Assembly: GCF_005886805.2 (NCBI RefSeq)
Contig: NZ_CP045429.1
Location: 4,310,501-4,374,500 of the forward strand
Source of the DNA: Pseudoalteromonas rubra
GTDB lineage: Bacteria; Pseudomonadota; Gammaproteobacteria; Enterobacterales; Alteromonadaceae
Reading direction: 5' to 3'
DNA: 64,000 nt
Part shown: in pieces, positions 12,774 to 61,084 of the stretch
Layout of the letters: every line of letters begins with the position of its first letter
Numbering within the stretch: position 1 is the stretch's first letter
Program-made: the position numbers and the translations under genes
Notes under the pieces: generated by a model
What the model saw: the letters and a program-made list of their open reading frames with translations, nothing else
What the model was told of the DNA's origin: nothing
The model's database searches: none

Positions 12774-12892
12774 GATTTATTCCTAAGTAACGATGAATAT
12801 CAAAAGTGACCGACAAAATAACACAAATTGCAATACCGCCAGCATAAAAAAAAGCGCCAAAATATCCAAAAAAAAACAATAAAGACACAATT

Positions 12893-12911
12893 TGTACACA
12901 GTTGGTGTACA
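12893..12911. promoter_or_regulatory. Perfect 7-5-7 palindrome in the NRPS promoter region
   Basis: TGTACAC-agttg-GTGTACA, flanked by AATT on both sides. It lies about 50 nt upstream of the first NRPS start codon in an otherwise A-rich 186-bp intergenic region and overlaps a -10-like CATAAT (12910-12915). The arrangement fits a dimeric repressor or activator operator controlling the biosynthetic operon. No dedicated regulator gene is in the cluster, so the binding protein is unknown. Confidence 0.55.
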
Positions 12912-12959
12912 TAATTCACACGCAACCAAGTTGAACATGTTAGCGAAGGACTAGAAGAC

Positions 12960-15900
12960 GTGAACACGAAGCATTTTTCAGACCGTGGTATGCCACCACT
13001 GGCGAAGACTCTCTCACAAGTTTATGGCAAATATGCGAATCGAACTGCGCTTATTTATGAAAATAATCATATCAGCTATCAGGAATTAGCACAGCGGGTT
13101 ACTTTCCTTGCTGGGCACATTCGTCTGCAACTGTGTGAACAGGCAGAAACAGCCCCTTCTTCTCAATACATTGCACTTTATCACGAGCGCGGCATTGATA
13201 TGGTTGTCAGTATGCTGGCAGCTGCGCATTGCGGGCTTGGCTATATTCCCATTTCTACCGATGCACCGGCGCAACGGACCCAGTTTATTTTACAAGATAG
13301 CCAGCCAGCTTTGATCCTAACCCACAGTCACCTCAGTAAGGTTGACGCCATTGCGGATCGTCCGCAGCTGTGCGTGGACACCCTCTGCCCCCGTGAGGCA
13401 CTCGACACAGCCCCCGCACAAACGCAAGACGCGATAGGGTACGTGATTTATACCTCAGGAACAACCGGGCAACCCAAAGGCGTGCAGATCCCGGCGCAAA
13501 ATATTTTACACCTCGCCGACACCCATATTGACGCGTTCAACACGCCACAGTATCAGCGCGCCTTGCTATTTGCCTCCTACATTTTTGATGCCAGCGTATT
13601 CGAACTGTTCGTCCATTTATTACTAGGCCAAAGCGTGTATATTGCCAGCGAGCACGAGCGTAAAGATGCGCAAGCCTTGAGCACACTGGTACAGCAAAAT
13701 AACATCGAGTTTGCCTCTATTCCGCCTGCACTGCTGGCATTAATTCCACCGCAACAACTCAGCGCACTCAAATGCCTGATCGTGGCCGGTGAGACACCCA
13801 ACGTAGCCATGCTCGAAGCTTACAGCCAGGTCACCGCGATCTATAATGGGTATGGCCCGACAGAAAACACCGTTGCAACCAGCTTGCATCGCTTTTCACC
13901 ACAAGACAGTGAGCTGAATATTGGCCAGCCGCTCAATGATACGCGCTTATATGTGCTGGATCCCCAGCTTAATCGCTGTCCACAAGGTGAGGTCGGTGAA
14001 TTATATATTAGTAGCCCGCGCCTGGCACTCGGGTATCTCAACCGTGATGAGCTGACCCAAAGTCGCTTTATCGCCAACCCGTTTTATGACCCCCAGTCCG
14101 ATGCCAGCGGTTTCAGCCGCTTATATAAAACAGGCGACTTAGCCTCCTTTGATGGTCAGGAGTACCATTTTGCCGGCCGTGACGATGGTCAGGTCAAGCT
14201 ACGCGGTTTTCGTATCGAGCTCGAGGAAATCGAACAAACCATCGCCACTTTAGACACAGTCAAACTGGTCAGTTGCGTTATCAAACAACAGGGCAATCGT
14301 CGCTTACTCGCCGCCTATGTCGTGACACAGCACGATGAAGCAACTCAGACTCAGGACATCGCCAACCACCTTAGCCGCACTCTGCCAGATTATATGCAGC
14401 CCGACCTGATCGTTCTGCTCAGTCAGCTGCCGATGACAGAAAATGGCAAAACGGACAAACGCGCACTGGCGGCATTACCTATTGAAGTTGAACACACCCA
14501 TCAGGATGCTCAGTTATCGCATACGCAGCACGCCTTTTTGACCCTGATGCAGGGCTATTGCCCGGCAGAGCTACACTGGCACAGTGATTACTTTGAACAA
14601 GGTGGTGACTCCATCTCTGCTATCCGTATCGCCAATGAAGTTCAGCAACAGCTTAAATTGCATCTGGATACCCAGCTGATTTACCGCTTGCGTACCCCGG
14701 CACAGATCTGGCAGGCGTTACTAACTCACAACGCCCGTCCGCCCGTCGACATTGCTCCGCGCGCAGCACACCATCAACACACGGCGCCGCTGTCTGCACA
14801 ACAAAGTGGGTTGTGGTTTTTAGCACGCCAGGCACCCGATAATCTCGCCTATCACTCGGTCAGCCGCCTGACGCTGAGCGGTGTGCTCGACCCGGCGGTA
14901 CTACAAGGTGCACTCAGTACGTTAGTTCAGCGCCACGAAATTTATCGAACGTCATTTGACCTGCACGAGCCGCTTCAGCATATCCACCCGCATTGTGTCC
15001 CTGAACTGCCAGTCTTAGATTACAGCGTTCTGAGTGAACAGGACGCCCAAGCGAAGATCACCCAGCATTTGGCCCGGCTTAATGCCCCATTCAAGCTAGA
15101 CAGCCTGCCACTGGCACGCTGGACACTAGTTAAACTGGATACTGAAAAACACGTCTTGCTGCAAGTAGAGCACCATTTGATCCATGACGGCTGGTCAGCC
15201 AATCAGTTTGCAACACAATTACTGGCCCTGTATGCCCAGCTCAACAATGGCGAATCTCTTGCCACAATGCCCGATGTCATCCAATATGCCGACTATGCCT
15301 GCCACCAGGCGCAGTGGCTGGACAGCGAGCAGGCACAGCAGCAACGTTTGTACTGGCAGACTCAGTTACAATCCGCTTCGCCGCGTATCAATTTACCTGT
15401 TTCACAGCTGGCACAAGATGTGCCCGTCAGCGCCGATACCTTTCGTCTTGAACTACCCAGACGTGTCTGGCAACAGCTTAAGCAATTTTGTCAGCGCAAT
15501 CAGATAACCCCCTTTTCGGCTACGTTGGCCACATTATATGTCGTACTGTCGCGCTTCAGTGGAGATGAGGATATCTGTATTGGTTCAGCCATGGCCAATC
15601 GCAATCACCCTCAGCTTGAAACCACCATGGGTATGCTGGTGAATACGGTGGTACACCGCTTACAAAGTGATCCGCAGACCACCATCAATGAACTTATCCA
15701 GCAGAGCTTTGAGGTATGCGCAGAAGCACAAGCGAACCAGGCTTTACCCTTCCCAGCGCTGGTTGATGCACTCAATGTGCCACGTATTCCCGGCGTAAAC
15801 CCGCTGTTTCAGGTATGTTTTACCTTCCAGGACACGCCACTGCCCGCAACCCCCCAGGATACATTCAAGGACATTCAACTTGATCAGGGGGCACCAGCAC

Positions 15901-17969
15901 AGGATGCTAAATTCGAGCTGAATATTGCGATGCTGGACATGCACAGTCAGGATCCGGACCGCCCAGTCGTCATGCAATGGGAATATGACCGCAGTCGCTA
16001 TGATCTTTGGTTTATTGAGTCTATGGCCAACAATTTTGCTCACCTGTTAGCGCAACTGGTGACATGCACGTCTCCATCCGCACTGTCTCAACCTTTGGCT
16101 GCACTGGCACCCGCGGCAACGCAGCCTGAACCGCTCACTACTCCGTTGCACTCCAGTGAAAGTCTGATTGCCTTATTCGAGCAACAGGCACAGCGCCAAC
16201 CCGGCAATACCGCCTTGTTCACCTCAACAGGCTCCATGAGTTACGATCAGCTGACGCGTCGTGCGAACCGGCTGGCACACTGGTTGATGGCCCAAAATGT
16301 GGCCGGTCAGTTTGTCGGACTATATTTACCGCCGGGCCCGGATACCCTGGTTGCGATTCTCGGCGTACTAAAAGCGGGGGCTGCCTATGTGCCGCTGTCT
16401 ACACGTGCGCCCGTCAGTCGTAATGGCTTTATTCTCGAGGATGCTCAGGTACAGGTCGTTATCAGCTATCGTGAACTCATTGATGACCTGAATACACCGC
16501 AGCTGACTCCCCTTTTCCTTGAGGATGAGGCAACCCTGCTCAGCTATCCGGACACATCGCCCACCAGCTCCATCACAGGCGTAGATCCAGCCTATGTCAT
16601 CTATACCTCTGGCACCACAGGCAAGCCCAAAGGCGTGGTTCAGACCCATGGCAATGTCGCCCGTTTGCTAAGCGCAGCCGAACAGCATTTTAGCTTTTCA
16701 ACACAAGATACCTGGGTGCTATACCACGACTATATCTTTGATTTCAGTGTCTGGGAGATCTGGGGCGCACTGGCCTATGGTGGCAAGCTGTTTATTCCGG
16801 ACTATCTGGAGATCCGCGACAGTATGCAATTTGTCGAGCAATGTCAGCAATTTGGCGTCACCGTACTCAACCAGACGCCCAGTGCGTTTTATACTTTTGC
16901 CGACATCGCCAGCACCGCTCAGATGCCGCTCAACACATTGCGCTATGTCATTTTTGGCGGTGAGCAACTGAACTATAGCAAGCTGGCGCCCTGGTGGCAG
17001 CAATATGGTGACCGCATCACTTTGGTCAATATGTATGGTATCACCGAGACCACAGTACACGTCACCGCGCTGACTCTGAGCGCTACTATGCCACGTCACA
17101 TTGCCGACATCGGTCAGCCGCTTGCCGACATGCAGGCGCTGGTGCTGGATGAGCAACATCGCCCTGTCCCTGTAGGTTGCCCGGGTGAGCTCTATATCAC
17201 CGGCGCAGGCCTGGCAGCGGGTTACCTGAACCGTGATACGCTAAGCGCAGAGCGCTTCTTTACCCTGACCCTGAGCGAGCGTGAATGTCGGGTGTATCGC
17301 ACCGGTGACAAAGCACGCCAGCTCCCAACCGGACATCTGGAATATCTGGGTAGGCTGGACGATCAGGTCAAGATCCGGGGTCACCGGATAGAGCTGGGTG
17401 AGATAGAAGCGCAGTTACTGACCTTCGGCGAAATTTCAAAAGCCTGCGTACTGACTTATGACAATCAGGGGCAAACAGCACTGGTGGGATACATAGTTCC
17501 TGCCGTGCATACCAGTGAGTGCGAAGCGCTGCGTCAACGCCTGGCTACACGTCTGCCTAATTATATGATCCCGGACCAGCTGATTGCGCTGGACGCATTT
17601 CCGCTCACCGTCAATGGCAAACTGGATAAAAAAGCATTGCCGGCGCCCAGCCTGACCAGTCAGAGTAACTATGTCGCCCCTCAGACACCATTACAACGGC
17701 AGCTTTGCCAGCTCTGGCAACAGATCCTGGGGGTGAGTCAGGTGGGGATCCAGGATGACTTTTTCCAGCTAGGTGGGAACTCTATTCTGGCAGTCAAGCT
17801 GGTACGCGAAGCGCAGGAGTCTATGCAGCTGGCTATGCCGCTATCAGCCCTGCTGAATTACCCAAATATTGCCACACTGGCTGAGCACCTGAGCAGCACT
17901 CAGGTAAATACCATCGTTCGTTCACAGCGTGCAACACAGACCAGCGCAAAGCAGGTCATGGAGCTTTAA
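12960..17969 (+). CDS. Nonribosomal peptide synthetase subunit 1 (A-PCP-C-A-PCP)
   Basis: A 1669-residue two-module initiation subunit. Module 1: adenylation domain (about 15-510; YTSGTTGQPKG near 163, YGPTEN near 298) and carrier protein (GGDS, Ser near 549). No condensation domain precedes it, as expected for a starter module. Module 2: condensation domain (about 605-1040; HHLIHDGWS near 737), adenylation domain (YTSGTTGKPKG near 1213) and carrier protein (LGGNS, Ser near 1607). Reading the ten specificity positions against GrsA gives D-F-W-N-I-G-M-V-H-K for A2, the canonical threonine code; A1 reads D-A-F-S-I-A-G-V-A-K, which I cannot assign. Start is GTG with AAGGA 9 nt upstream; ATG at 12990 is an alternative. 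The protein ends QVMEL, matching the tail of subunit 2. Confidence 0.95.
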   Translation: MNTKHFSDRGMPPLAKTLSQVYGKYANRTALIYENNHISYQELAQRVTFLAGHIRLQLCEQAETAPSSQYIALYHERGIDMVVSMLAAAHCGLGYIPISTDAPAQRTQFILQDSQPALILTHSHLSKVDAIADRPQLCVDTLCPREALDTAPAQTQDAIGYVIYTSGTTGQPKGVQIPAQNILHLADTHIDAFNTPQYQRALLFASYIFDASVFELFVHLLLGQSVYIASEHERKDAQALSTLVQQNNIEFASIPPALLALIPPQQLSALKCLIVAGETPNVAMLEAYSQVTAIYNGYGPTENTVATSLHRFSPQDSELNIGQPLNDTRLYVLDPQLNRCPQGEVGELYISSPRLALGYLNRDELTQSRFIANPFYDPQSDASGFSRLYKTGDLASFDGQEYHFAGRDDGQVKLRGFRIELEEIEQTIATLDTVKLVSCVIKQQGNRRLLAAYVVTQHDEATQTQDIANHLSRTLPDYMQPDLIVLLSQLPMTENGKTDKRALAALPIEVEHTHQDAQLSHTQHAFLTLMQGYCPAELHWHSDYFEQGGDSISAIRIANEVQQQLKLHLDTQLIYRLRTPAQIWQALLTHNARPPVDIAPRAAHHQHTAPLSAQQSGLWFLARQAPDNLAYHSVSRLTLSGVLDPAVLQGALSTLVQRHEIYRTSFDLHEPLQHIHPHCVPELPVLDYSVLSEQDAQAKITQHLARLNAPFKLDSLPLARWTLVKLDTEKHVLLQVEHHLIHDGWSANQFATQLLALYAQLNNGESLATMPDVIQYADYACHQAQWLDSEQAQQQRLYWQTQLQSASPRINLPVSQLAQDVPVSADTFRLELPRRVWQQLKQFCQRNQITPFSATLATLYVVLSRFSGDEDICIGSAMANRNHPQLETTMGMLVNTVVHRLQSDPQTTINELIQQSFEVCAEAQANQALPFPALVDALNVPRIPGVNPLFQVCFTFQDTPLPATPQDTFKDIQLDQGAPAQDAKFELNIAMLDMHSQDPDRPVVMQWEYDRSRYDLWFIESMANNFAHLLAQLVTCTSPSALSQPLAALAPAATQPEPLTTPLHSSESLIALFEQQAQRQPGNTALFTSTGSMSYDQLTRRANRLAHWLMAQNVAGQFVGLYLPPGPDTLVAILGVLKAGAAYVPLSTRAPVSRNGFILEDAQVQVVISYRELIDDLNTPQLTPLFLEDEATLLSYPDTSPTSSITGVDPAYVIYTSGTTGKPKGVVQTHGNVARLLSAAEQHFSFSTQDTWVLYHDYIFDFSVWEIWGALAYGGKLFIPDYLEIRDSMQFVEQCQQFGVTVLNQTPSAFYTFADIASTAQMPLNTLRYVIFGGEQLNYSKLAPWWQQYGDRITLVNMYGITETTVHVTALTLSATMPRHIADIGQPLADMQALVLDEQHRPVPVGCPGELYITGAGLAAGYLNRDTLSAERFFTLTLSERECRVYRTGDKARQLPTGHLEYLGRLDDQVKIRGHRIELGEIEAQLLTFGEISKACVLTYDNQGQTALVGYIVPAVHTSECEALRQRLATRLPNYMIPDQLIALDAFPLTVNGKLDKKALPAPSLTSQSNYVAPQTPLQRQLCQLWQQILGVSQVGIQDDFFQLGGNSILAVKLVREAQESMQLAMPLSALLNYPNIATLAEHLSSTQVNTIVRSQRATQTSAKQVMEL

Positions 17970-17970
17970 T

Positions 17971-20900
17971 ATGTTATCTTTTGTTCAAAAACTACATGCG
18001 CAAGGCTTGCGGGTCTGGCTGGGTGACAACAATTCGCTGGCACTGGGATATGAGGAAACCGTCGCAGCAGAATTGATTGCCGAGTTAAAAGCCAACAAGC
18101 CTTGCTTGCTGGCTTTGCTTGAAGAGCATCAGATACACTCGGAGCAGGCCTTTTTAAACTGGTCTGTGTTGCAGCTGTCTTCATTGTCGAATGCCCAGGC
18201 AAGACTCTTATTTGTTGACCGAATGCAGCCACAGCGCTGTGCCTATCATATTCCGATGCTGGTTGAGCACACGCATCCCCTTGATATTGCAGCACTGGAT
18301 AACGCGATTCAATCCTTGACGGTGCGTCATCCGATCTTAAACAGCCAGATTGTAGAGCATGACGACCTGCTCTATTGCCAGCCTCGTAGCACGATATGGC
18401 GCTCAGAGCAGCATGAATGCGCAGATCACCAGACACTCAAAGCAGAGGTGAAAGCTCAGGTGCTGACACCGTTTGATCTAACTCAGGACGCCCCCATGCG
18501 AGTGGTGCATTATCACTGTGCATCAACCACTTACACGTTGTTTTTATGGCATCACATTGCCTTTGACGGCTGGTCAATGCAGCTGTTTTTTGCTGAGCTG
18601 GGCCAGGCCCTGGGTGATCCCTTGTGGGCTGTGCAACAAACGTCACCCTTATCGTACTTTGACTACGCGGCCTGGCACCGAGATCTGGACCAACAAAAAG
18701 CCCATGATTACTGGCAAACATACTTAAAAGGCGCGCTGCCAACCCGGCTGCCAAAGACGCTGAGTGAGCCGCTGAGTACACCACTGACACGCGGCAGCAA
18801 CCTATACTTCACTCTGCCCGACTCACTCGGCACGCAGATCCGTCAGCTGGCCAGCAACCTCAGTGCAACGCCATTTAGTGTGTTGCTCAGTGCCTATTAT
18901 TACACTCTGATGCTCTTCACCAATCAGAATGATGTGCTGCTTGGCGTTCCATCTGACAACCGGGATCATCCTCAGACGCAGGATATTATTGGTTTTTTTG
19001 TCAACACCCTGGCCTTGCGGGCACAACTGGATAAACAAGCCAGCTTCGCGCAACTGGTCTCGCAGGTGAAAGAAAACCTGCATCAGGCCAAGCAACATCA
19101 AGATCTGCCATTTGACGAAGTGGTTCAATATTTTGCCCAGGACGACCGCGAGCAAAGTGCGCTGCAAATCATGTTCAGTGTGCAAAAGCTGGCCAGTCAG
19201 CTCGACCCCGCGCTGTCATTGCCCTTTGCGCTCAGCCCGCTACTCAGTGATGAAGAATTGTATCAGCCTATTAAGGTTGACCTGTTGCTGGCATTGGATG
19301 ACAGCGAAGAGATTATCTCAGGTCAGATTGATTACAACCCAAACCGCTTCAGTCATGCTTACATTGATGCCTTTCGTCAGACCTTTATTCACTTGCTTGA
19401 ATCCTGTGTGGCCGCGCCCCACCAGCCTTTGCAGTCACACAGTTATGTACCTGAGGCACAATCCATAAGCAACGTATTGAGTGCTGAAAAGCCGGTGTAT
19501 GAGCACCTGTATGAACGCTTTATCGAGCAAGCAGAAAAGACCCCGGATGCCACAGCACTTATCTACCAGGAACAAACGGTGAGCTATCGAGCATTGGCTC
19601 GGGAAGTCAGGATATTGGCCACTCATCTGCGCGCTCAGATTGCCCATCATGACGACCCCAAAGTCGCGCTGATGTTTGTCCGTGGCCCACAGATGGTCAC
19701 CGCTATTCTAGCCACCCTCGCTGCTGGCGCAGCATATGTGCCCCTGAGCCCGACCCAAGCCAGTAGCCGTAATCAGTTTATTCTCAGCGACTGTGGCGCG
19801 GCGTTGCTACTGACACTTCCCCACCTGGCCACACAGGCACAGCAATTGGCGCAGCCGAGTGCCTTGCCTGTGGTCACAACAGAGGCACTGCTAACAGGCC
19901 CGGCGGATGATGCGTTACCGCAAGGCTGTACTGAGCAACTTGCCTATGTCATTTACACCTCAGGCAGTACCGGACAACCCAAGGGCGTCATGGTTGAGCA
20001 TGGCCACGTTGACGCGCTGGTGCATAGTATCTCAGAGGTCTATCAATTCGACGCTGACGAGCGGACCTATTGGTTACCACCTTACTTTTTTGATGCCTCG
20101 GTCGAACCCCTATTTATGACTCTGCTCAATGGCGCCTGCCTGATCATTCCCAGCGAACGCAGCTGTAACGACCCGCTGGCAATGCGAGAAGAAATTCTCG
20201 ACCGGGAAGTCACCCACCTGGTAGCGTCGCCATCGCATTTACAGACCATAGGTCACTGCGGTAAGGCCAGCGCCATCCGGCGTGTGATTTTTGGTGGAGA
20301 GTCTTGTAGTCAAAGTCTGATCGATACCTGGCAGCAGCGCTTGTTCAGTGAATATGGCCCCACAGAAGCCACGGTAACAGCAACAGTCCATACCCAGTTT
20401 GCCCAACAGCAAAACCTCAAAGCCATTGGCAAGCCCCTCAGCCATGTCACCATCGACATCGTCGATGACACCTTAAGTGCGCTGCCAGTGGGCTGTCCTG
20501 GTGAGATACTCATTTGGGGCCACAGTATTGCCCGCGGCTATCTCAATCTGCCAGAACAAACCGAAGCACGTTTTATCACCACCGCGGCCGGACGTGCCTA
20601 CCGCACTGGTGATATGGCGCGTCGTCTGCCTTGTGGCAACCTCGAATTTATGGGCCGTAATGATGCGCAGGTCAAACTCCGGGGATATCGAATCGAGCTC
20701 AACGAAATTGAAGCCGTGCTGCTAAAACATGGCGACATTGAACAAGCCTGTGTGAAAGTACAGACACTGGCTCAGGGACCTGCACTGGTTGCGTATCTCG
20801 GCACCAACAGCACCCTAACGCTCGAGCAGTTATTACCCTGGCTGAGTGAGCGCCTACCAGACTATATGCACCCGGCGGCAATACAATGTAGTGCGACCTT

Positions 20901-23900
20901 ACCTCTGCTGCCATCTGGTAAAGTCGATGCCCGAGCCCTCACGCCACTGGACGTCAGCATCAGCACCACCTATGTCGCGCCGCAAAGCCCGCTGGAAAAA
21001 GATCTGTGTGCACTGTGGGCTGAGCATCTGGGAGTGGAGCAAGTGGGGATGTATGACAGCTTTTTTGCTCTGGGTGGCAATTCACTCAGTGCGATGACGC
21101 TGGTTGCCAAAATGCAGCGTACCTTATCACTGCCGGTCACACTCAAAGCACTGTTTACCCATAAGACACCCGCTGCGCTGCTGGCTAACCTGGATTCTCA
21201 ACATAATATTGAGCCAATCCCCGTGCTCACTGATCCTACTGTGCGCGTCGCCGTCACCCCGCAACAGCAGGCCATGTTACTAAGTGAGCGCCTTGCCACC
21301 ACCGCCGGTGCCTATCATATCCCACTCATGCTGGGTTGCGACTCCCTCGCTCATCAGCAGGCCCTGATGGAGGGGGTACAACAGGTGATCAGCCGACATT
21401 TGGTGTTACAACAAGGCTACGAACAGGATGAGCAAGGGCACTGGTACATTAGCCAAACTCGCTATCCCATCCCCTGTCAGGTACTGGCTGTGAGCGGCAA
21501 TGATGACAGAGGGTTGCAGGAATTTGTCAATGCACCGTTTGCACTGGACACTTCTGCTCCGGTGAAAGTGGCACAGTTACGCGTTGGGCCTTTGCCTAGC
21601 TACAGACTGCTACTGGTGTTTCATCATATCGCCTTTGACGGCTGGTCAGTCGAACGCTTTATTCATGAGCTGGATCAGCAAATGGCTGGCAAAGTTATCA
21701 CGCCTCCAGCACTGACCTATCGGGATTACGCGCACTGGCGCAGTCAACAAGATGAAAGCACTGAGCTGGCTTACTGGCAGCAGGCGTTTGCCGGTATAGA
21801 CCTGACTCCCTGGGAAAGCGACTTTAGCCGCAGTGCCAGTTATGATCCGCAAGGCCGGGCGCTGACCTTCACATTACCCGATATCCTGACCCAGTCATTA
21901 CGCACTCTGGCACAACAACAGGGCGTAAGTCTGTATGCGACACTGCTTAGCAGTTTTCAGCTCGCTGCTTGCTTCTGGGCTGACCGGGATGACATTGTCA
22001 TTGGCACCCCCAGCGACAACCGCGCCCATCCGGATAGTCATGAGCTGATGGGCTACTTTGTTAATACCCTGGCGCTGCCTCTGCGCTTGGACAGCACGCT
22101 CAGCTTTACCGCACTCATGACACAAGTGCAGGGACAGGTTCATGAAGCCAAAAGTCATCAGGGTGTGTCAGCGGATGTATTGGCAGACGCACTGAACGTT
22201 GAACGACAAAGTGGCTTATCGCCGCTCTTCCAGCTGTTCTTCACTCTGGACCAGTTCAATCCAATGGATCAGGCATTTAATGGCTTTGAAGTGATCCAGG
22301 AAAACCCAGAGGATTACGCCTATACCCCGGCCAAGTTTGAATGGAATATGGTCTTTAAAGACGACGGCACTCAGCTGCAAGGGCAGTTCACCTATGCCAC
22401 GACCCGCTTTGATGCTACTCGTTGCGAGCAATTCCTGACATTCTACCAGGTACTGTTAGAGAACCTGGTGAGTGCACCGGAACGCGCGGTGCGCGACTGT
22501 CCACTACTGAGTGACATACAGTTTCAGGCACTCGTTGCCCAACAGGCTCAGCAGTACAGTGAATCACAGACAAACTGGTTAGCCTGCTTTGCACAAGCCT
22601 GCCAACGTGCACCACACAACATCGCCCTGTCATTTGAAGACCAGCAACTGAGTTATGCTGAGCTGGATAGCTTGTCGTCACAACTGGCAGCTACACTGCA
22701 TCAGCGCCTGGGTACACCGGGTGTTGAGCCAGCCCATGTCGCGCTGCATTTTCACAAAGGCTGCGATATGATCATCGCCATGCTGGCCACACTCAAGGCA
22801 GGTGCGGCATTCGTCGCGCTATCGCCTAACCACCCACAATCCCGGCGCGAAACCCTGTTGGAGCAGGCACAGTGTGCACTGCTACTCAGTGATGATGCAT
22901 TAAGCTGGTCAACGGTGCCCACTTTGCTGTATCACTGGCGTGACTGGCCAGAAACGCAATCCGACTCTTATTGTATCGACTTTAACCACAACGCTGATCG
23001 CCTCGCTTATCTCATTTATACCTCAGGTACTACTGGCACACCTAAAGGGGCCATGCTCAGCCATCGCGGCTTGATAAATCTCTCAGAACATATGATGTAC
23101 AGCCACCGCTTAATTGGTCGATCACGTCAGGTGATTGCCAGCCAGTATGCAGAATACGTCTTCGATGCGTCCATCATAGAGATATTTCCTGCGCTTGCTG
23201 CGGGCGCGAGACTCGAGATCATGCCTGAGGCGATCCGTCGTGACGTGCCCAGATTATGTGATTTCCTGCGTCGTCAGCAGGTCGATGTCGCGTTCGTGCC
23301 CACCGTACTGGTCAATCAATTTCCGGATCTGCTGGCGGCGTGCGAGTTAGACGTCCTGTTTGTCGGCGGCGCGCCACTGAATCCGGTACACATACCGCTG
23401 GCAAAAACCTTGTACAACGAATACGGACTCAGTGAAACCAGTGTCTGTATCAGCCAGGCCGAGGTGCTCCCGCAGCAGCCTGTCACCATAGGACGCGCTA
23501 TTCGTAATAGCCGTTTGTATGTACTGGATAAATATCAGCGACCTGTGCCACCAGGTGGTTGTGGCGAGCTGCACAGTGCAGGAAGTAGTACCGGACTGGG
23601 GTATTGGCAAAATGCCGATAAAACAGCAGCGCACTTCTTCGAACTCACACTACATCACGGCTCACAACGCCTCCATGAGCAGGTGTATCGGACTGGTGAC
23701 TTAGTACGCCGCGTAGATAAAGACACCCTGCAGTTTGTAGCACGTACCGATCAGCAGCTGGAGATTAATGGCTATCGCATAGAGCCGGGCGAGATTGAAG
23801 CTAAACTGCTGGCGCATCCCGATATAGCTCAGGCCGTCGTCTGTCAGGTGCAAGGTCATGCACAACAACTGATCGCTTACTGTGTGTTGAATCAGGATGA

Positions 23901-24357
23901 CACCGTACAAGTGGCAGAGTCACAGTCTCGCACCTTGCTCAACTGGCTGAACGCACAGCTGCCCCCTTATATGCGACCAAAACACCTACTGTTTGTGAGT
24001 CACTTCCCGCTGACCTTAAATGGCAAGCTGGATCTGAAACAACTGCCACAACCTGAACTGAATCAGCTTCAGGTCGAACAACGGGCACCACAAACCCAAA
24101 CAGAACAAACCGTGCTCGAACTCTGCCAGCGACTGCTTGGCGTGTCTGAGTTGAACATCAATCATGACTTTTTCGAACTGGGTGGCTCTTCCGTACAAGC
24201 CGCCCGGTTAATCGCCGAGTGCGAAAAAGCATTTGTGGTCAGTATTGAACTGGCCACCCTACTGACGCATCCGGTACTGGCCGAATTTGCTGCCGCCGTA
24301 GATCGGCTTCTGGCTGAACAAGCCATCCCTGACGCCGAATTTGAAATGGAATTATAA
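17971..24357 (+). CDS. Nonribosomal peptide synthetase subunit 2 (TubC dock-C-A-PCP-C-A-PCP)
   Basis: A 2128-residue subunit beginning 1 nt after the stop of subunit 1, with GGAG before the ATG. Residues 1-55 (MLSFVQKLHAQGLRVWLGDN onward) form a TubC-type N-terminal docking domain. Module 3: condensation (HHIAFDGWS near 194), adenylation (YTSGSTGQPKG near 660, EYGPTE near 794), carrier (LGGNS, Ser near 1036). Module 4: condensation (HHIAFDGWS near 1218), adenylation (YTSGTTGTPKG near 1681, EYGLSE near 1815), carrier (LGGSS, Ser near 2074). Specificity positions read D-A-E-V-I-G-E-V-T-K (A3) and D-A-I-F-F-G-E-V-C-K (A4); neither matches a code I know. A4 has a divergent core around ARTDQQLEINGYRIEPGEIE. 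No epimerase or methyltransferase inserts. C-terminus EFEMEL. Confidence 0.95.
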   Translation: MLSFVQKLHAQGLRVWLGDNNSLALGYEETVAAELIAELKANKPCLLALLEEHQIHSEQAFLNWSVLQLSSLSNAQARLLFVDRMQPQRCAYHIPMLVEHTHPLDIAALDNAIQSLTVRHPILNSQIVEHDDLLYCQPRSTIWRSEQHECADHQTLKAEVKAQVLTPFDLTQDAPMRVVHYHCASTTYTLFLWHHIAFDGWSMQLFFAELGQALGDPLWAVQQTSPLSYFDYAAWHRDLDQQKAHDYWQTYLKGALPTRLPKTLSEPLSTPLTRGSNLYFTLPDSLGTQIRQLASNLSATPFSVLLSAYYYTLMLFTNQNDVLLGVPSDNRDHPQTQDIIGFFVNTLALRAQLDKQASFAQLVSQVKENLHQAKQHQDLPFDEVVQYFAQDDREQSALQIMFSVQKLASQLDPALSLPFALSPLLSDEELYQPIKVDLLLALDDSEEIISGQIDYNPNRFSHAYIDAFRQTFIHLLESCVAAPHQPLQSHSYVPEAQSISNVLSAEKPVYEHLYERFIEQAEKTPDATALIYQEQTVSYRALAREVRILATHLRAQIAHHDDPKVALMFVRGPQMVTAILATLAAGAAYVPLSPTQASSRNQFILSDCGAALLLTLPHLATQAQQLAQPSALPVVTTEALLTGPADDALPQGCTEQLAYVIYTSGSTGQPKGVMVEHGHVDALVHSISEVYQFDADERTYWLPPYFFDASVEPLFMTLLNGACLIIPSERSCNDPLAMREEILDREVTHLVASPSHLQTIGHCGKASAIRRVIFGGESCSQSLIDTWQQRLFSEYGPTEATVTATVHTQFAQQQNLKAIGKPLSHVTIDIVDDTLSALPVGCPGEILIWGHSIARGYLNLPEQTEARFITTAAGRAYRTGDMARRLPCGNLEFMGRNDAQVKLRGYRIELNEIEAVLLKHGDIEQACVKVQTLAQGPALVAYLGTNSTLTLEQLLPWLSERLPDYMHPAAIQCSATLPLLPSGKVDARALTPLDVSISTTYVAPQSPLEKDLCALWAEHLGVEQVGMYDSFFALGGNSLSAMTLVAKMQRTLSLPVTLKALFTHKTPAALLANLDSQHNIEPIPVLTDPTVRVAVTPQQQAMLLSERLATTAGAYHIPLMLGCDSLAHQQALMEGVQQVISRHLVLQQGYEQDEQGHWYISQTRYPIPCQVLAVSGNDDRGLQEFVNAPFALDTSAPVKVAQLRVGPLPSYRLLLVFHHIAFDGWSVERFIHELDQQMAGKVITPPALTYRDYAHWRSQQDESTELAYWQQAFAGIDLTPWESDFSRSASYDPQGRALTFTLPDILTQSLRTLAQQQGVSLYATLLSSFQLAACFWADRDDIVIGTPSDNRAHPDSHELMGYFVNTLALPLRLDSTLSFTALMTQVQGQVHEAKSHQGVSADVLADALNVERQSGLSPLFQLFFTLDQFNPMDQAFNGFEVIQENPEDYAYTPAKFEWNMVFKDDGTQLQGQFTYATTRFDATRCEQFLTFYQVLLENLVSAPERAVRDCPLLSDIQFQALVAQQAQQYSESQTNWLACFAQACQRAPHNIALSFEDQQLSYAELDSLSSQLAATLHQRLGTPGVEPAHVALHFHKGCDMIIAMLATLKAGAAFVALSPNHPQSRRETLLEQAQCALLLSDDALSWSTVPTLLYHWRDWPETQSDSYCIDFNHNADRLAYLIYTSGTTGTPKGAMLSHRGLINLSEHMMYSHRLIGRSRQVIASQYAEYVFDASIIEIFPALAAGARLEIMPEAIRRDVPRLCDFLRRQQVDVAFVPTVLVNQFPDLLAACELDVLFVGGAPLNPVHIPLAKTLYNEYGLSETSVCISQAEVLPQQPVTIGRAIRNSRLYVLDKYQRPVPPGGCGELHSAGSSTGLGYWQNADKTAAHFFELTLHHGSQRLHEQVYRTGDLVRRVDKDTLQFVARTDQQLEINGYRIEPGEIEAKLLAHPDIAQAVVCQVQGHAQQLIAYCVLNQDDTVQVAESQSRTLLNWLNAQLPPYMRPKHLLFVSHFPLTLNGKLDLKQLPQPELNQLQVEQRAPQTQTEQTVLELCQRLLGVSELNINHDFFELGGSSVQAARLIAECEKAFVVSIELATLLTHPVLAEFAAAVDRLLAEQAIPDAEFEMEL

Positions 24358-24368
24358 TGAGGTTCTCC

Positions 24369-27300
24369 ATGCACCAGTTAATGTACACCCTGAAAAGCCA
24401 ACAGATCAGTGTCTGGCAAGACCAAGGTAAGCTAAAACTTGCCAGCCAGAGTGATGTAAGCCAGTCGGACATAGTGGCGACAATCCGCGCTCATAAAACC
24501 CAGCTGCTGGACTATTTGCAACGCCATAACATCAACAGCAGGCTGTGCTTTGAGCAAACACAGATCTTTGCAGCCGAAAGCAATGCTGCGCCGCTGACGC
24601 TGGGACAGACACAAATGATGTTTTCTCAGCAAGTCAGCGAGCAGACCCATACCTATCATATTCCCTGCTTATTGAAGCTTTCCAAAGACTGCGATAGAGA
24701 CGCAATGGAACAAGCGTTGCAGCGTCTGTGTCAACGACACAGTGCACTCAGTGTCTGCTTTGTCTCCAGTGCACAGGGTCAGATACAGCAACAGTGTTGT
24801 GATACCCCTTTTGTACTGACACAGCTAGACTGCGATGAGGCCACACTGGATGAAACCTGCCAGCAGCTATTTACCCGACCCTTTGCATTAAGTGAGGAAC
24901 GCCCGTTTCGTGGCACCTGGTTGAGTACAGAGTCACACAATTATCTTTATCTGCTATGGCACCATATTGCCTTTGATGGCTGGTCTTTGGGTGTGTTCTT
25001 AACTGAACTGCAGGCCAGTTATCAGGGTACGGCACTTGCCCCCGCATTACAGTTTAATGATTACGCTCACTGGCAGGCACAACGTCTGAGTGCACAGCGT
25101 ATTGCAACACTGAAAGACTACTGGCTAACGCAACTTGATGCCCATTCTGCCTTACATTTGCCCTGCGCCTACACCAGACCTAAAGTGTTTGACCACACTG
25201 GGGCAAATGCCACGCTGACCCTGCCTGATGGCAGCAGCGAACAACTTCAGGCCCTGGCAAAACGTCACAAGATCAGCACCAATACGCTGGGTCTGGCAGC
25301 CTGGTTCCATACCCTGAGCTTATACAGCGGCCAGCAGGATCTGACTATCGGGTTACCCAGCGACAACCGCCCTAATCAGGCTTGTCAGCAGATCCTGGGT
25401 TACTTTGTAAACTCTTTGCCAATCCGCCTTCAAACTGAGCTGAGCCACACGCTGGGCGACTGGCTGGCGTTGGTACAACGTCAGGTTAATGAAGCAAAGG
25501 CGCATCAGGATTTACCTTTTGAGGAAATCAAATCAGCACTGGATGTGACCATGGACACCAGTCGCCACCCGGTGTTTCAGACCATGTTTACTTCCAGTCA
25601 GTTTCAGCACGCCACTGAACATGCGTTGTGGCAGCAGCATATGACCGACACAAATGCAAATGTAACCGCTAAGTTTGACCTGACTATGCATTTGGAACTG
25701 GCCCCAGATCAAGCTCAGGTCAACCTCAACTATGCCAGCGCACTATATAGTAAAGAGCATGCCCAGCGTATCGCTGCACTCTATACCCAGATCTTAACCG
25801 CCTATGCACAGAGTATGGAGACAGAACGCGATACGCTATTTAGCTTACCGCTACTTAGCCAGTCAGATTTAGACGTACAACACCTGCTCAGTGGTCATTC
25901 TGACGCCTTCCCGCCTCTCCTGACTATCACGGAACGATTTGCGCACATCGCTGCCAAATACCCGCAACACATCGCCCTGCAAAGCGCCGAACGACACTGG
26001 ACCTATCAGCAGCTAGATCAGGAAACCAATCGTCTGGCAGCCCAAATCCAGGCATTTGCCCCGGGCGTTCAGGTAGTTGCACTACATTTGCCCGGAAATG
26101 CTCCGTTAGTCATCGCCATGCTGGCGACCCTTAAGGCTGGTGCAGCTTACACCACTTTGCCGTATAAAGACCCGCTGCCACGACGGGCCTATCAGCTTGA
26201 AGACAGTCAGGCAGAGCTGCTACTGACGCAAAACAGTTTAATTGAAGAAGCCGGGATCCTGGCTGACTCTGCGCAATTGCCACTGCTTAATGTCGATGAC
26301 ATCCTGGGTAATACATCTTTGAGTACTGAGCCCGTGCAATGTGAAACGACCCCACACAGCCCGGCCAATATCATCTATACCTCAGGGACAACCGGCAAAC
26401 CAAAAGGCGCCTTACTGACGCATTATGGCTGCACGTCTTTCACGGCTGATTGTCAGTACATCAAAATCACGTCTCAATCACGCATGATGCAGCTGGCCAA
26501 TCCCGCTTTTGATGCCACGACCATTGAGACCTGGATGTGTTTACTCAATGGTGCAACCCTCTATTGCGGTTACAGCGACTTACTCAGTCAGATCACTGAG
26601 TTCAAAAAGATGTTGTGTGAGGAGCAGATCTCAACCTTGTTCCTGACCCGGGCATTATTCGACACCCTGTTCCAGCAAGACCCCACACTGTTTGCTTCTT
26701 TGGAGCATCTGCTTTCGGGCGGGGAAGCACTGACCCCGGAGCTGGTTAATCAGCTGGTCAATTCACAGTACGCACCTAAACACTTTTATAACCTCTATGG
26801 CCCGACGGAATGCTCCAGTTGTACAACCAGTCATGAGATCACTGGTCAGGATACCCGTATCCCCATAGGCAAACCCATCCAGGGCCGGGCCGTTGCTGTC
26901 ATTGGTCAATATGGCCAGCTGCTGCCGCTGGGCTGTCCCGGCGAATTGTACATTGGCGGCGCAGGCCTCGCGCTGGGGTATTTGAATCGCGATACACTCA
27001 GTGCTGAAAAATTCGTCACGCTCAAAGTGTTTGGTCAACCTCAGTCTTATTACCGAAGCGGAGATCTGGTTTACTGGCAACCAGATGGCACACTGGCTTA
27101 TCTTGGCCGCAATGATGAGCAGGTCAAGATCCGCGGTCACCGCGTTGAACTAGGAGAAATCGAACAACATCTCAATGCCCTCCCCGAAGTCAGCAATTGT
27201 GCCTTAGTGGTACGCAAACACCAAGGCCACAGCCAGCTTGATGGCTATGTGGTGCTGGCAGAGGCAGGTGACATCAACACGCAGCTTGATACACTACGCG

Positions 27301-28490
27301 ATACACTCAATCAGCGGCTGCCCGACTATATGCAGCCACATACCTTAAGCGCCATCGAGCAGCTGCCATTGACCACCAGCGGGAAACTCGACAAGCGTCG
27401 ATTACCTGAGCCGCAACGGGTGTCGGATACCGTGGTAGAACCTGAGAGCGCAACAGAGAGAAAGCTCTTGGCACTGTGGCAATCCCTGCTGGGCATCGAC
27501 AGCATGTGTGTCACGCAACCTGTGATGCATTATGGCGCTGACTCTATTCGACTGTTGCACTTTTGCAGTGCAGCAAGCAAAGAAGGTTGGCAGCTGACGC
27601 CTAAGCTCTTGATAGAGCACAACACCATTCGCACCCAGGCGGCACTGCTGGAGCAGCAAAATCGAGATCTGTTCAACTGCATGACTGATGATGAGGCGCT
27701 ACAGGCCGTGTTAACGTTGCCACATTTCGAACCCGGGCTAATCCGCCCCGCAGAAATAGCAGATGCGGCCATTGTGCATCTGTTCCCCGCAGCGGCCAGT
27801 GCAGATAGCTTTAATCCCCTGGTTGAAAAATTAAGCACGCAGTTTGAGGTACATGCGCTGGAGAACGTGAAAATATTCACCGGTCGCCACCTCAACCAAC
27901 TGAGCCTGGTGCGTTATTATGCCGAACGCATTGTTGCGCATCAAAGCGAGGGACCCTACTACCTGGGTGGTTTCTGCGAAGGCGCGGCCCTAAGCCTTGA
28001 AGTTGCCAGACATCTGGAGTCTATGGGTCATGAGGTAGCACACAGCTTCCTGATTGACCCCATCCTGCCGCAACTGAGCGCAACCCAACTGGCCGACGCA
28101 GAGCAACGCGTACAGGACAGTGACCCAAGCCTGGAAACCTGGCCAATCGGTCGTGCTTTTGTGGACTTTGTACGTCACTTCCGGACTGCCCACCCTTACG
28201 CCTACCCGGTGAGCTTTTTTACCGCCGATCGGGTCAACGATGAAGCAATGCCAACAGAGGCGTTAGGCCTGTTCGAACCGGTGTTTGATGTCGCGACGGT
28301 ATATAAAGCCACTTTTGCGTTACCCGACAATGGCTTTGCAACCTTGCTGCCCCAGGCCGAGTACATTGACTTGCACAGCGCCCATGATGAAATAATGACC
28401 GATGAAGAAGATCTGAATTGCATTGCCACACGCTTCAATCAAGTGTTGTCTTCAGCACAATCTCACCTGGTCCAGGAGCGACGCGCATGA
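24369..28490 (+). CDS. Nonribosomal peptide synthetase subunit 3 (TubC dock-C-A-PCP-TE, termination)
   Basis: A 1373-residue termination subunit. The ATG at 24369 has GAGG 6 nt upstream; another ATG at 24357 overlaps the subunit 2 stop and would add four residues. Order: TubC-like docking domain (1-55), condensation (HHIAFDGWS near 198), adenylation (IIYTSGTTGKPKG near 668, LYGPTE), carrier with an atypical YGADS core (Ser near 1058) and a C-terminal alpha/beta-hydrolase thioesterase from about 1140. In the thioesterase the nucleophile motif is GGFCEGA, so Cys (near 1203) replaces the usual Ser; FLIDP supplies a candidate Asp and SAHDEIM the His. The adenylation code reads D-A-I-F-L-G-L-S-C-K, unassigned. 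The thioesterase should release the pentapeptide by hydrolysis or cyclisation. Confidence 0.95.
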   Translation: MHQLMYTLKSQQISVWQDQGKLKLASQSDVSQSDIVATIRAHKTQLLDYLQRHNINSRLCFEQTQIFAAESNAAPLTLGQTQMMFSQQVSEQTHTYHIPCLLKLSKDCDRDAMEQALQRLCQRHSALSVCFVSSAQGQIQQQCCDTPFVLTQLDCDEATLDETCQQLFTRPFALSEERPFRGTWLSTESHNYLYLLWHHIAFDGWSLGVFLTELQASYQGTALAPALQFNDYAHWQAQRLSAQRIATLKDYWLTQLDAHSALHLPCAYTRPKVFDHTGANATLTLPDGSSEQLQALAKRHKISTNTLGLAAWFHTLSLYSGQQDLTIGLPSDNRPNQACQQILGYFVNSLPIRLQTELSHTLGDWLALVQRQVNEAKAHQDLPFEEIKSALDVTMDTSRHPVFQTMFTSSQFQHATEHALWQQHMTDTNANVTAKFDLTMHLELAPDQAQVNLNYASALYSKEHAQRIAALYTQILTAYAQSMETERDTLFSLPLLSQSDLDVQHLLSGHSDAFPPLLTITERFAHIAAKYPQHIALQSAERHWTYQQLDQETNRLAAQIQAFAPGVQVVALHLPGNAPLVIAMLATLKAGAAYTTLPYKDPLPRRAYQLEDSQAELLLTQNSLIEEAGILADSAQLPLLNVDDILGNTSLSTEPVQCETTPHSPANIIYTSGTTGKPKGALLTHYGCTSFTADCQYIKITSQSRMMQLANPAFDATTIETWMCLLNGATLYCGYSDLLSQITEFKKMLCEEQISTLFLTRALFDTLFQQDPTLFASLEHLLSGGEALTPELVNQLVNSQYAPKHFYNLYGPTECSSCTTSHEITGQDTRIPIGKPIQGRAVAVIGQYGQLLPLGCPGELYIGGAGLALGYLNRDTLSAEKFVTLKVFGQPQSYYRSGDLVYWQPDGTLAYLGRNDEQVKIRGHRVELGEIEQHLNALPEVSNCALVVRKHQGHSQLDGYVVLAEAGDINTQLDTLRDTLNQRLPDYMQPHTLSAIEQLPLTTSGKLDKRRLPEPQRVSDTVVEPESATERKLLALWQSLLGIDSMCVTQPVMHYGADSIRLLHFCSAASKEGWQLTPKLLIEHNTIRTQAALLEQQNRDLFNCMTDDEALQAVLTLPHFEPGLIRPAEIADAAIVHLFPAAASADSFNPLVEKLSTQFEVHALENVKIFTGRHLNQLSLVRYYAERIVAHQSEGPYYLGGFCEGAALSLEVARHLESMGHEVAHSFLIDPILPQLSATQLADAEQRVQDSDPSLETWPIGRAFVDFVRHFRTAHPYAYPVSFFTADRVNDEAMPTEALGLFEPVFDVATVYKATFALPDNGFATLLPQAEYIDLHSAHDEIMTDEEDLNCIATRFNQVLSSAQSHLVQERRA

Positions 28491-29770
28491 CCAAACAACA
28501 ATTGTGTAAGCGTTACGGTATTCATCTCGGTCTGACCATGTTTGCTGCCATGTTGCTGCTGCCGATCCTGACCCCTTACCTGCTCGCGCAGGGCTTTGTG
28601 GTCAGCCAGATAGCCATTGCCATGGTCGTCATGAGTGCCGTGATCATCATCTGTGAAGTACCCAGTGGGGCGCTGGCCGATCATTTTGGCCGTCGCCGAC
28701 TATTTTGCTGTTCATTGATATTTGCTTTACTGACCAACCTGTTACTGTTGGTCGCCACGGATTTTGTGACTTTACTGATTGCTGTCAGTTGCTGGGGGCT
28801 TAACCAGGCCACCCTGAGTGGGACACTCAACGCCTGGTTTGTGGAGCGCTTTCATGAAGCAGAAGGCGAACAAACCCTGAATCAGGGGTTCGCCGCGACC
28901 TATGGCCTGGCGTATGGGATTGGTGCCTCCTCCGCGGTGCTCTCCGCTTTGTTTCTGGCGTTTGGCGATCACCTTGCGCTGTCGACCTTGCAGATGTATC
29001 AGCTGATCTTTGTGGTGTCGAGCATCGGCTTTATCTTGCTGCTGCCGCTGACCTTTCACTGGGTCAAAGAGGTCAAATCTCCGGCTCAGCAGCGCTTTAA
29101 ACAGGCACTGAGCCAACATGTTGGCACCACTCTCAGCACAGTGCGTCAACCAGCACTGGCTAAACTGCTCATTGCGCTGGTAATCGTGATCCCGGTCAGC
29201 GCCAGTATTGAAAAATTCTGGCCAATCTTTGTTCACCAGCTGGAGCAAGTCGATATGGATTCAGTGGCCTGGTTATTTCCAGCCGTCATGGCTGCAACCT
29301 TTGCTCTGAACGGTGTCGCCGCGGTACTCAGTGCTAAGCTGTGTACACTGCTCAATCAAAAGCTGGGGCAGGCAATGGCTGTTGCCCACTTACTTAAGCT
29401 GGTGGCTTTGGTTGCCATGGCACTGGCACCTGATCTCAGTTGGTTTGTGGCAGCGTTACTGCTGTTCTTCCTGTGCTTTGGCCTGACCCAGCCGGCACAA
29501 TTACAGCTGCAGCATCAACTGTGCGACGACAGTGTGCGAGCTACTATAGAATCACTGGGCTCACTAACGACCCGCATGGGTGGCATGCTGGGTGCCGCAC
29601 TGACAGGCGCTTTACTGAATCTGGTTTCGCTGCCGGTGAGCTGGTTACTGCTTGGCGCCTTGTCGCTACTGGGCATCGTGCTGCTGTTCAGCCCATCGCT
29701 CAACCAGCAAGACCCGCCTGCAGTAACAGAGCCAGAGGCTGAACCCGCTTCCGCGGACCTTAACGCCTGA
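28487..29770 (+). CDS. MFS transporter, probable exporter of the NRPS product
   Basis: A 427-residue polytopic membrane protein with about 12 hydrophobic segments and the MFS loop motif SGALADHFGRRRLF between TM2 and TM3. Its ATG overlaps the NRPS stop by 4 nt (ATGA) and is preceded by AGGAG, so it is translationally coupled to the synthetase; an upstream extension of the frame lies inside the NRPS gene and is rejected. A short acidic, Pro/Glu-rich tail ends the protein. The coupling argues for export of, or self-resistance to, the peptide. Its 3' end overlaps the convergent hydrolase gene by 11 nt. Confidence 0.9.
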   Translation: MTKQQLCKRYGIHLGLTMFAAMLLLPILTPYLLAQGFVVSQIAIAMVVMSAVIIICEVPSGALADHFGRRRLFCCSLIFALLTNLLLLVATDFVTLLIAVSCWGLNQATLSGTLNAWFVERFHEAEGEQTLNQGFAATYGLAYGIGASSAVLSALFLAFGDHLALSTLQMYQLIFVVSSIGFILLLPLTFHWVKEVKSPAQQRFKQALSQHVGTTLSTVRQPALAKLLIALVIVIPVSASIEKFWPIFVHQLEQVDMDSVAWLFPAVMAATFALNGVAAVLSAKLCTLLNQKLGQAMAVAHLLKLVALVAMALAPDLSWFVAALLLFFLCFGLTQPAQLQLQHQLCDDSVRATIESLGSLTTRMGGMLGAALTGALLNLVSLPVSWLLLGALSLLGIVLLFSPSLNQQDPPAVTEPEAEPASADLNA

Positions 29771-30425
29771 CAGTAACCGTCGCGCTATACAGAGGGGCAT
29801 CCTGGAGCTGTAACGCCAGGGTGTCGCCTTCGTTTAATGCCCCCACCCCCTGTGGGGTGCCAGTCATAACGATATCACCCGGGTTCAGGGTAAAATATCG
29901 GCTGATCTCAGTCAGCAAGCTCGTCAGTGAAAAAATCATCAAGCTGCTGTCTCCGTGCTGCTTAAGCGCGTCATTTTGCCAAAACCGATAGTGCAGCACA
30001 CTGTTTTCATCCAGGCCATTTACGGCTCTGAATGGGGTGACACTGCAACTGTTATCAAACGCCTTGGCACACTCCCAAGGGTGCCCCTGTTGTTTTAATT
30101 TGCTCTGTAACTCCCTGAGTGTCAGGTCCAGCCCGGTCGCAATCCCACAGATATGTTGCAACGGCTCACGGGTGTGATTATCTATGGTCTCTCCCACCAG
30201 CAGTACGAGCTCAGCTTCATAATGGTGCTCACCCAGCGTGGTATTGAGTACCAGTGGCGACTGAAAATGGCAAAATGCCGAGGCTGGTTTGATAAAAAGC
30301 AGGGGGTTATCGGGTATTGGGTTGTTTAGCTCTTTGGCATGTGCCACGTAATTGCGACCCACACATACCGCTTTACCAACCTCCAGAGCGACTGCGTCAC
30401 CTGATTCCCATAAGTGCTGATACAT
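29760..30425 (-). CDS. Fumarylacetoacetate hydrolase family protein (YcgM-like)
   Basis: A 221-residue FAH-fold protein. Landmarks are VCVGRNYVAHAKELNNPIP at the N-terminus, metal-ligand Glu residues in HHYEAELVLLVGE, Asp in GLDLTLRELQ, and GDIVMTGTPQGVG. Members hydrolyse or decarboxylate small oxo-acids such as acylpyruvates; oxaloacetate decarboxylase activity is also known. GGAGGT precedes the ATG. It is convergent with the MFS gene and probably a core gene marking the right border of the NRPS locus. Confidence 0.9.
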   Translation of the reverse strand: MYQHLWESGDAVALEVGKAVCVGRNYVAHAKELNNPIPDNPLLFIKPASAFCHFQSPLVLNTTLGEHHYEAELVLLVGETIDNHTREPLQHICGIATGLDLTLRELQSKLKQQGHPWECAKAFDNSCSVTPFRAVNGLDENSVLHYRFWQNDALKQHGDSSLMIFSLTSLLTEISRYFTLNPGDIVMTGTPQGVGALNEGDTLALQLQDAPLYSATVTVRR

Positions 30426-35737: not shown

Positions 35738-36042
35738 GGTGTATCCTTGTCGGCACAGAAGAGCTGATAAAGCTGCTGCAAGATCACCAGCACCTTGTCA
35801 TCCGCAATGCGGTAATACACAGTAGCACCAGCGCGTCGTGAAGCAACGACCCCAGTTTTCCGCATTGCAGCCAGGTGCTGAGACAGTGCAGATTGAGCCA
35901 GTGGAACCCGCTCATTCAACTCACCGACACTGAGTTCTGTACTTTGCAAACTGCATAAGATCATCAACCGATTCCGATTCGCGAGCATCTTAAGTAATGC
36001 TTCAGCCTGTGCGGCGCTGTCGGCCATTGCGTGTAAATCCAT
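35734..36042 (-). CDS. ArsR-family repressor, SqrR/BigR (persulfide-sensor) type
   Basis: A 102-residue winged-helix protein (helix-turn-helix SVGELNERVPLAQSALSQHL). The start at 36042 is preceded by GAGGTGGGG; an upstream in-frame extension is rejected. Two cysteines are present, one in LMILCSLQ and one near the C-terminus in LYQLFCADK, matching the positions of the redox cysteines of BigR, SqrR and YgaV, which sense persulfides. Metal-site motifs of classic ArsR (ELCVCDL) are absent. It heads the operon with the RND pump and faces a DUF2892-rhodanese operon across tandem palindromes, the usual company of these sensors. Confidence 0.88.
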   Translation of the reverse strand: MDLHAMADSAAQAEALLKMLANRNRLMILCSLQSTELSVGELNERVPLAQSALSQHLAAMRKTGVVASRRAGATVYYRIADDKVLVILQQLYQLFCADKDTP

Positions 36043-36084
36043 ACTTTTCCCCACCTCAATGATGTGGCGAGTATAGAACATAAC

Positions 36085-59921: not shown

Positions 59922-61084
<1,163 letters not shown>

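Follow-up and report, generated by a model that had tools for sequence, protein, structure and literature searches.

Three nonribosomal peptide synthetase (NRPS) genes of Pseudoalteromonas rubra, followed by a transporter gene, raise the question of whether they form a complete assembly line and, if so, what it would make. They occupy positions 12960–29770 of a 64,000-nucleotide (nt) stretch of DNA, hereafter the window (C1:4310501–4374500, on the larger of the two contigs of the 5.94 Mb genome). We read this cluster as a complete orphan nonribosomal pentapeptide line of Pseudoalteromonas, to which we assign a probability of about 80%; its product is probably an undescribed five-residue peptide that is made and exported.

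Domain order, conservation and boundaries of the four-gene unit

Pfam searches identified five adenylation (A) domains, five peptidyl carrier proteins (PCP), four condensation (C) domains and one thioesterase (TE), arranged over the three synthetases as A-PCP-C-A-PCP / dock-C-A-PCP-C-A-PCP / dock-C-A-PCP-TE, where dock stands for a docking domain. The fourth gene encodes a transporter of the major facilitator superfamily (MFS). One A domain and one PCP per residue, with C domains between residues and a terminal TE, is the arrangement of a linear (type A) NRPS. Protein 1 opens with an A domain, and neither the starter C domain nor the acyl ligase of a lipopeptide NRPS was found at the first module. 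Within the unit there are no epimerization (E), methyltransferase, oxidase, MbtH or phosphopantetheinyl transferase (PPTase) genes; the only MbtH match of the genome lies outside it at C1:4290366, and two ACPS-family matches are found elsewhere (C1:4251015 and C1:3229617). The four genes are free of frameshifts and premature stops. HHxxxDG is present in all four C domains, the PCP serine in 5/5 and the A10 Lys in all five A domains. The original prediction had proposed the same domain order, a single collinear line free of tailoring with its exporter in the operon, and a PPTase encoded elsewhere; the order was confirmed by Pfam together with a separate search of the protein 2 N-terminus, and the core of the proposal survived the tests. 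Of inactive domains, which it had considered as a ground for refutation, the C, PCP and TE domains gave no sign, as no catalytic residue is missing from them; the A8 motif of the fourth A domain (A4) is off consensus. The class is well known and its chemistry ordinary for an NRPS. The description of the line as plain holds for its core and fails for three features, namely a cysteine TE, the charge-inverted A8 motif of A4 and the diverged code of the fifth A domain (A5).

The cluster TE was detected in 14 of 108 genomes of the genus, the present one included (E-value <= 1e-20). All 13 relative clusters were retrieved and compared by alignment to the present proteins rather than by Pfam; active residues, A codes and tags were aligned across all 14 clusters with every row kept. 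The module 3 PCP reads GGNS in eight of these clusters and GGHS in six. In each of the 13 relatives the three synthetase genes follow one another as here, with the MFS gene after them, and identities to the present cluster are 80–87% in three relatives and 43–52% in ten. Ratios of nonsynonymous to synonymous substitution (dN/dS) between the present cluster and that of genome G033 were 0.05–0.11 for the ten whole domains measured, and because of these values and its presence in 14 of the 108 genomes the cluster is more than a chance assemblage. Named carriers of TE relatives include Pseudoalteromonas sp. OOF1S-7 and P. rubra S2471 (86% identity) and, by source names, P. viridis and P. maricaloris. 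When the TE region was searched against about 5.8 billion proteins, three close proteins (the present one and those of P. viridis and P. maricaloris) and two marginal matches came up; the search required shared 5-residue words and used 90%-identity clusters, so that remote relatives may escape it.

The unit is flanked by purT (11586–12773), 186 nt ahead of the gene for protein 1, and by an FAA-hydrolase gene (29760–30425). In three cluster-free genomes (G013, G004 and G014) the gap from purT to the FAA-hydrolase gene is about 110–150 bases, the genes further out are those found here, and nothing in the gap matches protein 1 or the MFS protein; since the two genes directly adjoin there, the unit comprises four genes only. 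The stretches retrieved from G009 and G002 gave no match to purT. In G026, a genome of 4.1 Mb, the four genes are intact on C6 (L040/L041), and just upstream lies a decayed piece of purT (aligned residues 208–320, with internal stops); no intact purT was found elsewhere in this genome, its other purT matches being only 24–26% identical. The differing flanks had suggested a second, independent insertion, which was rejected on account of the decayed purT beside the cluster; G026 more likely carries the same site with eroded or rearranged flanks. Because the flank decayed while the cluster stayed whole, the cluster may well be kept for its product.

Near neighbours of the cluster are purT and genes for an aldo/keto reductase, the FAA hydrolase, a nitroreductase and a resistance-nodulation-division (RND) pump. 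Nitroreductase, FAA hydrolase and RND pump were rejected as pathway genes because they are grouped with purT in cluster-free genomes. Among the 44 open reading frames (ORFs) of the window scanned with Pfam there was no siderophore-type receptor or chelator-making gene.

Predicted residues and order of assembly

In the mechanism that we propose, protein 1, having no starter C domain, would begin with a free amino acid, probably aromatic, on its own A-PCP and would then add L-Thr. Its MEL tail would dock on the TubC-type domain of protein 2, which would add residues 3 and 4, and the MEL tail of protein 2 would dock on protein 3, which would add a residue of Val/Ile ancestry. The peptide, all-L, unacylated and with a free amine, would be moved to the TE cysteine and released, either linear, as an acid, or closed into a small ring, and the MFS protein encoded in the operon would export it.

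The predicted order 1-2-3 is supported by putative docking tags, as the C-terminal ME[LI] ends face TubC-type docking domains. The tag of protein 1 is the same in all 14 clusters, and that of protein 2 is EFEMEL in 10, EFEMEI in three and EFKMEI in one; MEL is presumably the motif that the docking domain binds. Pairs of a tag and a TubC-like docking domain are described in PMC6195595, including those of rhabdopeptide Kj12, which share the TubC-like N-terminal docking domain with the present line; the present line differs in having two pairs whose MEL tags are nearly identical. Against PDB sequences, the protein 3 docking domain gave weak matches (AerJ, E-value 0.12; Kj12B-NDD, E-value 0.24) and the protein 2 docking domain gave none.

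The A codes were read by motif in the 14 clusters, at the Stachelhaus positions. The first varies as DAF[SAC][IV]AGV[ACG]K. DAWTIAGVCK, listed at an N-methyl-Phe (Phe(Me)) position in Table 1 of PMC2533009, has seven of ten positions in common with the present code and eight of ten with the DAFAIAGVCK of relatives; as it is the nearest code seen, residue 1 is probably aromatic. The code of the second A domain stands for Thr in the same table and appears in PMC12283262 among codes of the Thr type that are also associated with modified Thr, which makes Thr the predicted residue 2 in 14/14 clusters. The third and fourth codes are conserved as DAEV[IV]GEVTK and DA[IC]F[FY]GEV[CT]K. The code of A5 is DAFWLGGTFK in seven relatives and DAFFLG[GV]TFK in six; the former is Val in PMC9113097 and DAFFLGVTFK is listed as Ile/Val. 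Thus the statement that only one residue was predictable proved too cautious, as A1 also resembles a Phe-type code and A5 is of Val/Ile type in the 13 relatives. The codes of A1, A3, A4 and the present A5, with the variants tried, were not found in the main text of open-licence papers, supplements and MIBiG being outside this scope.

Stereochemistry was approached through a tree of C domains from the same genome, for which 68 sequences were used (73 condensation-family matches, four of them from the present cluster, minus two unlisted and three of <=380 amino acids). Four domains that follow E domains grouped together (98/94), and ten domains opening with YPLAPLQ, which we take to be the label of dual E/C domains, clustered with them (100/100). 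The four C domains of the cluster fell outside this D-accepting group, within a clade that also includes 40 further domains (95/80); three of the four form a clade of their own (100/99) and the first, of module 2, stands beside two others on long branches. On the strength of these placements we expect an all-L peptide. The absence of an epimerase would by itself be no proof against D-residues, because the ten dual-like domains lie elsewhere in the same genome, and it is the tree that supports all-L.

The genome is rich in NRPS enzymes, and large NRPS regions lie at C1:1043000–1108000, C1:3647000–3680000 and C2:922000–981999 and contain near-identical duplicated C domains; dual-like C domains occur in the C1:1043000–1108000 and C2:922000–981999 regions.

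Modules 4 and 5 and release of the peptide

Several points weigh against a complete and ordinarily working pentapeptide line. The line is an orphan, and no sigma-70-type promoter match was found in 12650–13050. The docking domain of protein 2 scored below the Pfam cut-off of 26 bits and surfaced when the N-terminus was searched alone. The C domain of module 3 has HHIxFDA in 10 of the 14 clusters, the present one not among them, and DG in four. The C domains were typed from the tree of a single genome, which included no reference of experimentally established type, and since the motif HH[IL]xxxxGD, expected of the dual type, was absent from all 71 sequences, the label dual-like reflects the opening motif only. 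A4 has Glu or Asp instead of Lys in its A8 motif in 14/14 clusters, and because the motif is thereby charge-inverted, the loading of module 4 may be non-ordinary. Finally, the present A5 code is unmatched, the Val/Ile type of residue 5 being deduced from the 13 relatives, and the A5 core is fast-changing, with a dN of 0.216 from G033 compared with 0.032, 0.038, 0.063 and 0.061 for the cores of A1 to A4.

With so atypical an A4, the line might skip module 4 and make a tetrapeptide, or a different A domain might load that module and so supply residue 4 in trans; we regard either outcome as unlikely. A pattern scan of the NRPS loci of this genome found 60 A8 motifs, 54 with Lys and A4 as the single acidic case, and A4 has YGLSE for YGPTE in the five clusters examined for it; yet Lys is not universal, three of the motifs having Gln and two Ser. 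In the present genome A4 keeps core motifs A3, A7 and A10, the A10 Lys and the PCP serine of module 4 are invariant in all 14 clusters, and the dN/dS of the A4 core (0.048 against G033) fits a working enzyme.

The diverged A5 code departs from DAFWLGGTFK at five positions and from DAFFLG[GV]TFK at four, which together with the raised dN would suit a relic whose A5 code is lost and whose product is no longer made in the present species. We hold this to be improbable, given four open genes, the presence of all eight core motifs sought in A5, and an A5 core dN/dS of 0.129 against G033, far below 1, although dS is near saturation (1.07–1.68 in the A cores against G033, a weak yardstick, and 0.99–1.89 against G033 or G093). 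Selection on the present A5 may nevertheless be relaxed. Gene conversion as the source of the new code was rejected, as the best matches are orthologous A5 domains (G033 at 71–72% and three others at 47–56%), after which other A domains match at about 44% or less; no donor appeared among the loci covered, which were up to 49 in number and all numbered below L060. The A5 sequence is most simply read as having changed specificity through point substitutions. We offer only tentatively, and as doubtful, the fuller proposal that the terminal A domain was re-coded in place by point changes at four or five positions, without a domain swap, in the present species while its relatives keep the line, and that it feeds the conserved cysteine TE, of the little-studied type with its Asp in position I, after passage through the module with the inverted A8 motif. 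If true, it would provide two congeners that differ at residue 5, as well as a first product of this type of TE.

The TE cysteine (GFCEG) is present in 14/14 clusters, whereas the other 13 thioesterase-family matches of the genome have Ser. The Asp after strand 6 (FLIDP), position I, is likewise invariant. A predicted model (pLDDT, the predicted local distance difference test, 67.9; five-sequence alignment) places Cys95, Asp122 and Asp179, in that order, each after one of three successive strands. Structurally characterised NRPS thioesterases with Cys are SulM and ObiF1, with Asp after strand 7, and AB3403, with Asp after strand 6 (PMC11298585). With some doubt, we assign the present TE to the AB3403 type. 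AB3403 (terminal module from A. baumannii, PDB 4zxh) shares the Cys nucleophile and the triad Asp after strand 6 and ranked second among the PDB sequence matches listed, but it differs in sequence, with 16% identity in the fold alignment; its product is called uncharacterised in PMC11298585. It is very improbable that the TE builds a strained or reactive, beta-lactone-like end as ObiF1 and SulM do. The Cys nucleophile of all 14 clusters, which PMC11298585 ties to beta-lactam and lactone release, would fit such an end, as would the second Asp at model residue 179, found there in 10/14 clusters and one place later, in a shifted register, in the other four. ObiF1 and SulM, however, use position II, while the invariant Asp here is in position I; the terminal residue, of Val/Ile type in the relatives, lacks the beta-hydroxyl or sulfamate needed for closure; and the 50 fold matches listed for the model (pLDDT 67.9) include Pks13, NocB and AB3403 but not ObiF1 or SulM.

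For the pentapeptide line preferred here, the compact four-gene unit, its clean boundaries and its 14 natural variants make three questions directly testable: the role of the peptide for the species that carry it, the action of a cysteine TE with an ordinary Asp position, and the change of an A code in place.

Gene joints, related systems and other features of the window

The features of the unit are listed in Table 1. Protein 2 most likely starts at ATG 17971, 1 nt past the stop of protein 1, while the ORF list had an earlier GTG at 17929. Protein 3 starts either at ATG 24357, which has 1 nt in common with the stop of protein 2 (24357), or at the in-frame ATG 24369, 11 nt after that stop, with which a relative of 1373 amino acids agrees. 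The MFS start (ATG 28487) lies within the end of the protein 3 gene (stop 28490), which gives a 4-nt overlap, as in the ORF lists of 12 of the 13 relatives; for G093 and the present genome an earlier MFS start is listed. Of the spacings in the original prediction, the 4-nt overlap and the 1-nt gap therefore stand, and the 12-nt spacing gives way to 11 nt or to a shared nucleotide. Protein 1 is 1660–1669 amino acids long among the clusters, and AAGGA was seen ahead of its start in the upstream sequences. A palindrome, TGTACAC-N5-GTGTACA at 12893–12911, was dropped as an operator since it is missing from all 13 relatives. By eye, several of the relatives' upstream sequences (12774–12959 here) carry spaced ACACA-type repeats, for example TACACATTTCAAACACATT in G028, which are a possible candidate for a regulator site.

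Table 1. Features of the predicted pentapeptide synthetase unit, in window coordinates
Feature	Position	Strand	Remarks
NRPS protein 1 (A-PCP-C-A-PCP)	12960..17969	+	Pfam; GTG start 12960, stop 17969
A1 (loading module)	13023..14489 (ends approximate)	+	Code DAFSIAGVAK; Phe-like aromatic predicted
C domain, module 2	14775..16067	+	Pfam; HHLIHDG; outside D-accepting clade
A2	16176..17621	+	Code DFWNIGMVHK, Thr predicted; identical in 14/14 clusters
C-terminal docking tag QVMEL, protein 1	17952..17966	+	14/14 clusters; putative function
NRPS protein 2 (dock-C-A-PCP-C-A-PCP)	17971..24357	+	Pfam and gene-joint reading; ATG 17971
TubC_N-type docking domain, protein 2	17977..18126	+	E-value 9.6e-5, 22.9 bits
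C domain, module 3	18181..19461	+	Pfam; HHIAFDG
A3	19525..20943	+	Code DAEVIGEVTK
C domain, module 4	21253..22518	+	Pfam; HHIAFDG
A4	22606..24027	+	Code DAIFFGEVCK; A8 motif ARTDQQLEINGYRIE, acidic residue replacing Lys
C-terminal docking tag EFEMEL, protein 2	24337..24354	+	Putative function
NRPS protein 3 (dock-C-A-PCP-TE)	24357..28490	+	Pfam; start 24357 or 24369
TubC_N docking domain, protein 3	24372..24521	+	E-value 2e-10, 41.0 bits, above cut-off 26
C domain, module 5	24582..25850	+	Pfam; HHIAFDG, 14/14 clusters
A5	25938..27386	+	Code DAIFLGLSCK, diverged from Val/Ile-type code of 13 relatives
Thioesterase, Cys nucleophile	27693..28484	+	GFCEG (Cys codon 27975-27977), Asp of FLIDP, His of HDE
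MFS transporter	28487..29770	+	PF07690; 4-nt overlap with protein 3

The pentaminomycin and BE-18257 lines, compared here by description rather than by sequence, likewise have five modules and five residues with one peptide per line. The pentaminomycin ring is reportedly closed by a separate enzyme, whereas the present line has a built-in cysteine TE and no E domains. Bromoalterochromides and flavipulchrins are also NRPS peptides of Pseudoalteromonas; they are lipopeptides with D-residues and E domains, and the present line differs from them in having no starter C domain, no polyketide synthase and no E domain. At the level of literature listings on nonribosomal, orphan or pentapeptide products of P. 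rubra and Pseudoalteromonas, no paper tied to the locus was found, and no match to the present locus could be made for the NRPS regions of P. viridis BBR56 (PMC11015633). P. rubra S2471, which carries the cluster, is among the strains of a genome-mining survey whose main text contains neither 'pentapeptide' nor 'modules' (PMC4359443). In PMC12819058, seven strains, P. rubra DSM 6842 among them, are reported to have mostly resisted electroporation, with P. flavipulchra as the exception.

Elsewhere in the window, an ArsR-type regulator, the RND pump and a membrane-fusion gene form a set at 31318–36081 (-) beside the nitroreductase; the pump genes also occur in cluster-free genomes and are therefore placed outside the unit. 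A 991-residue protein (36992–39967, +) joins Tricorn C1, peptidase S41 and beta-lactamase-family domains, and in G033 and G018 a relative is encoded downstream of the RND genes. An IS4-type transposase (49490–50830, +) and an integrase-core protein (60263–61084, +) are both encoded downstream of the cluster, and a WD40 beta-propeller protein (51883–52944, +) gave good scores to eukaryotic WDR models.

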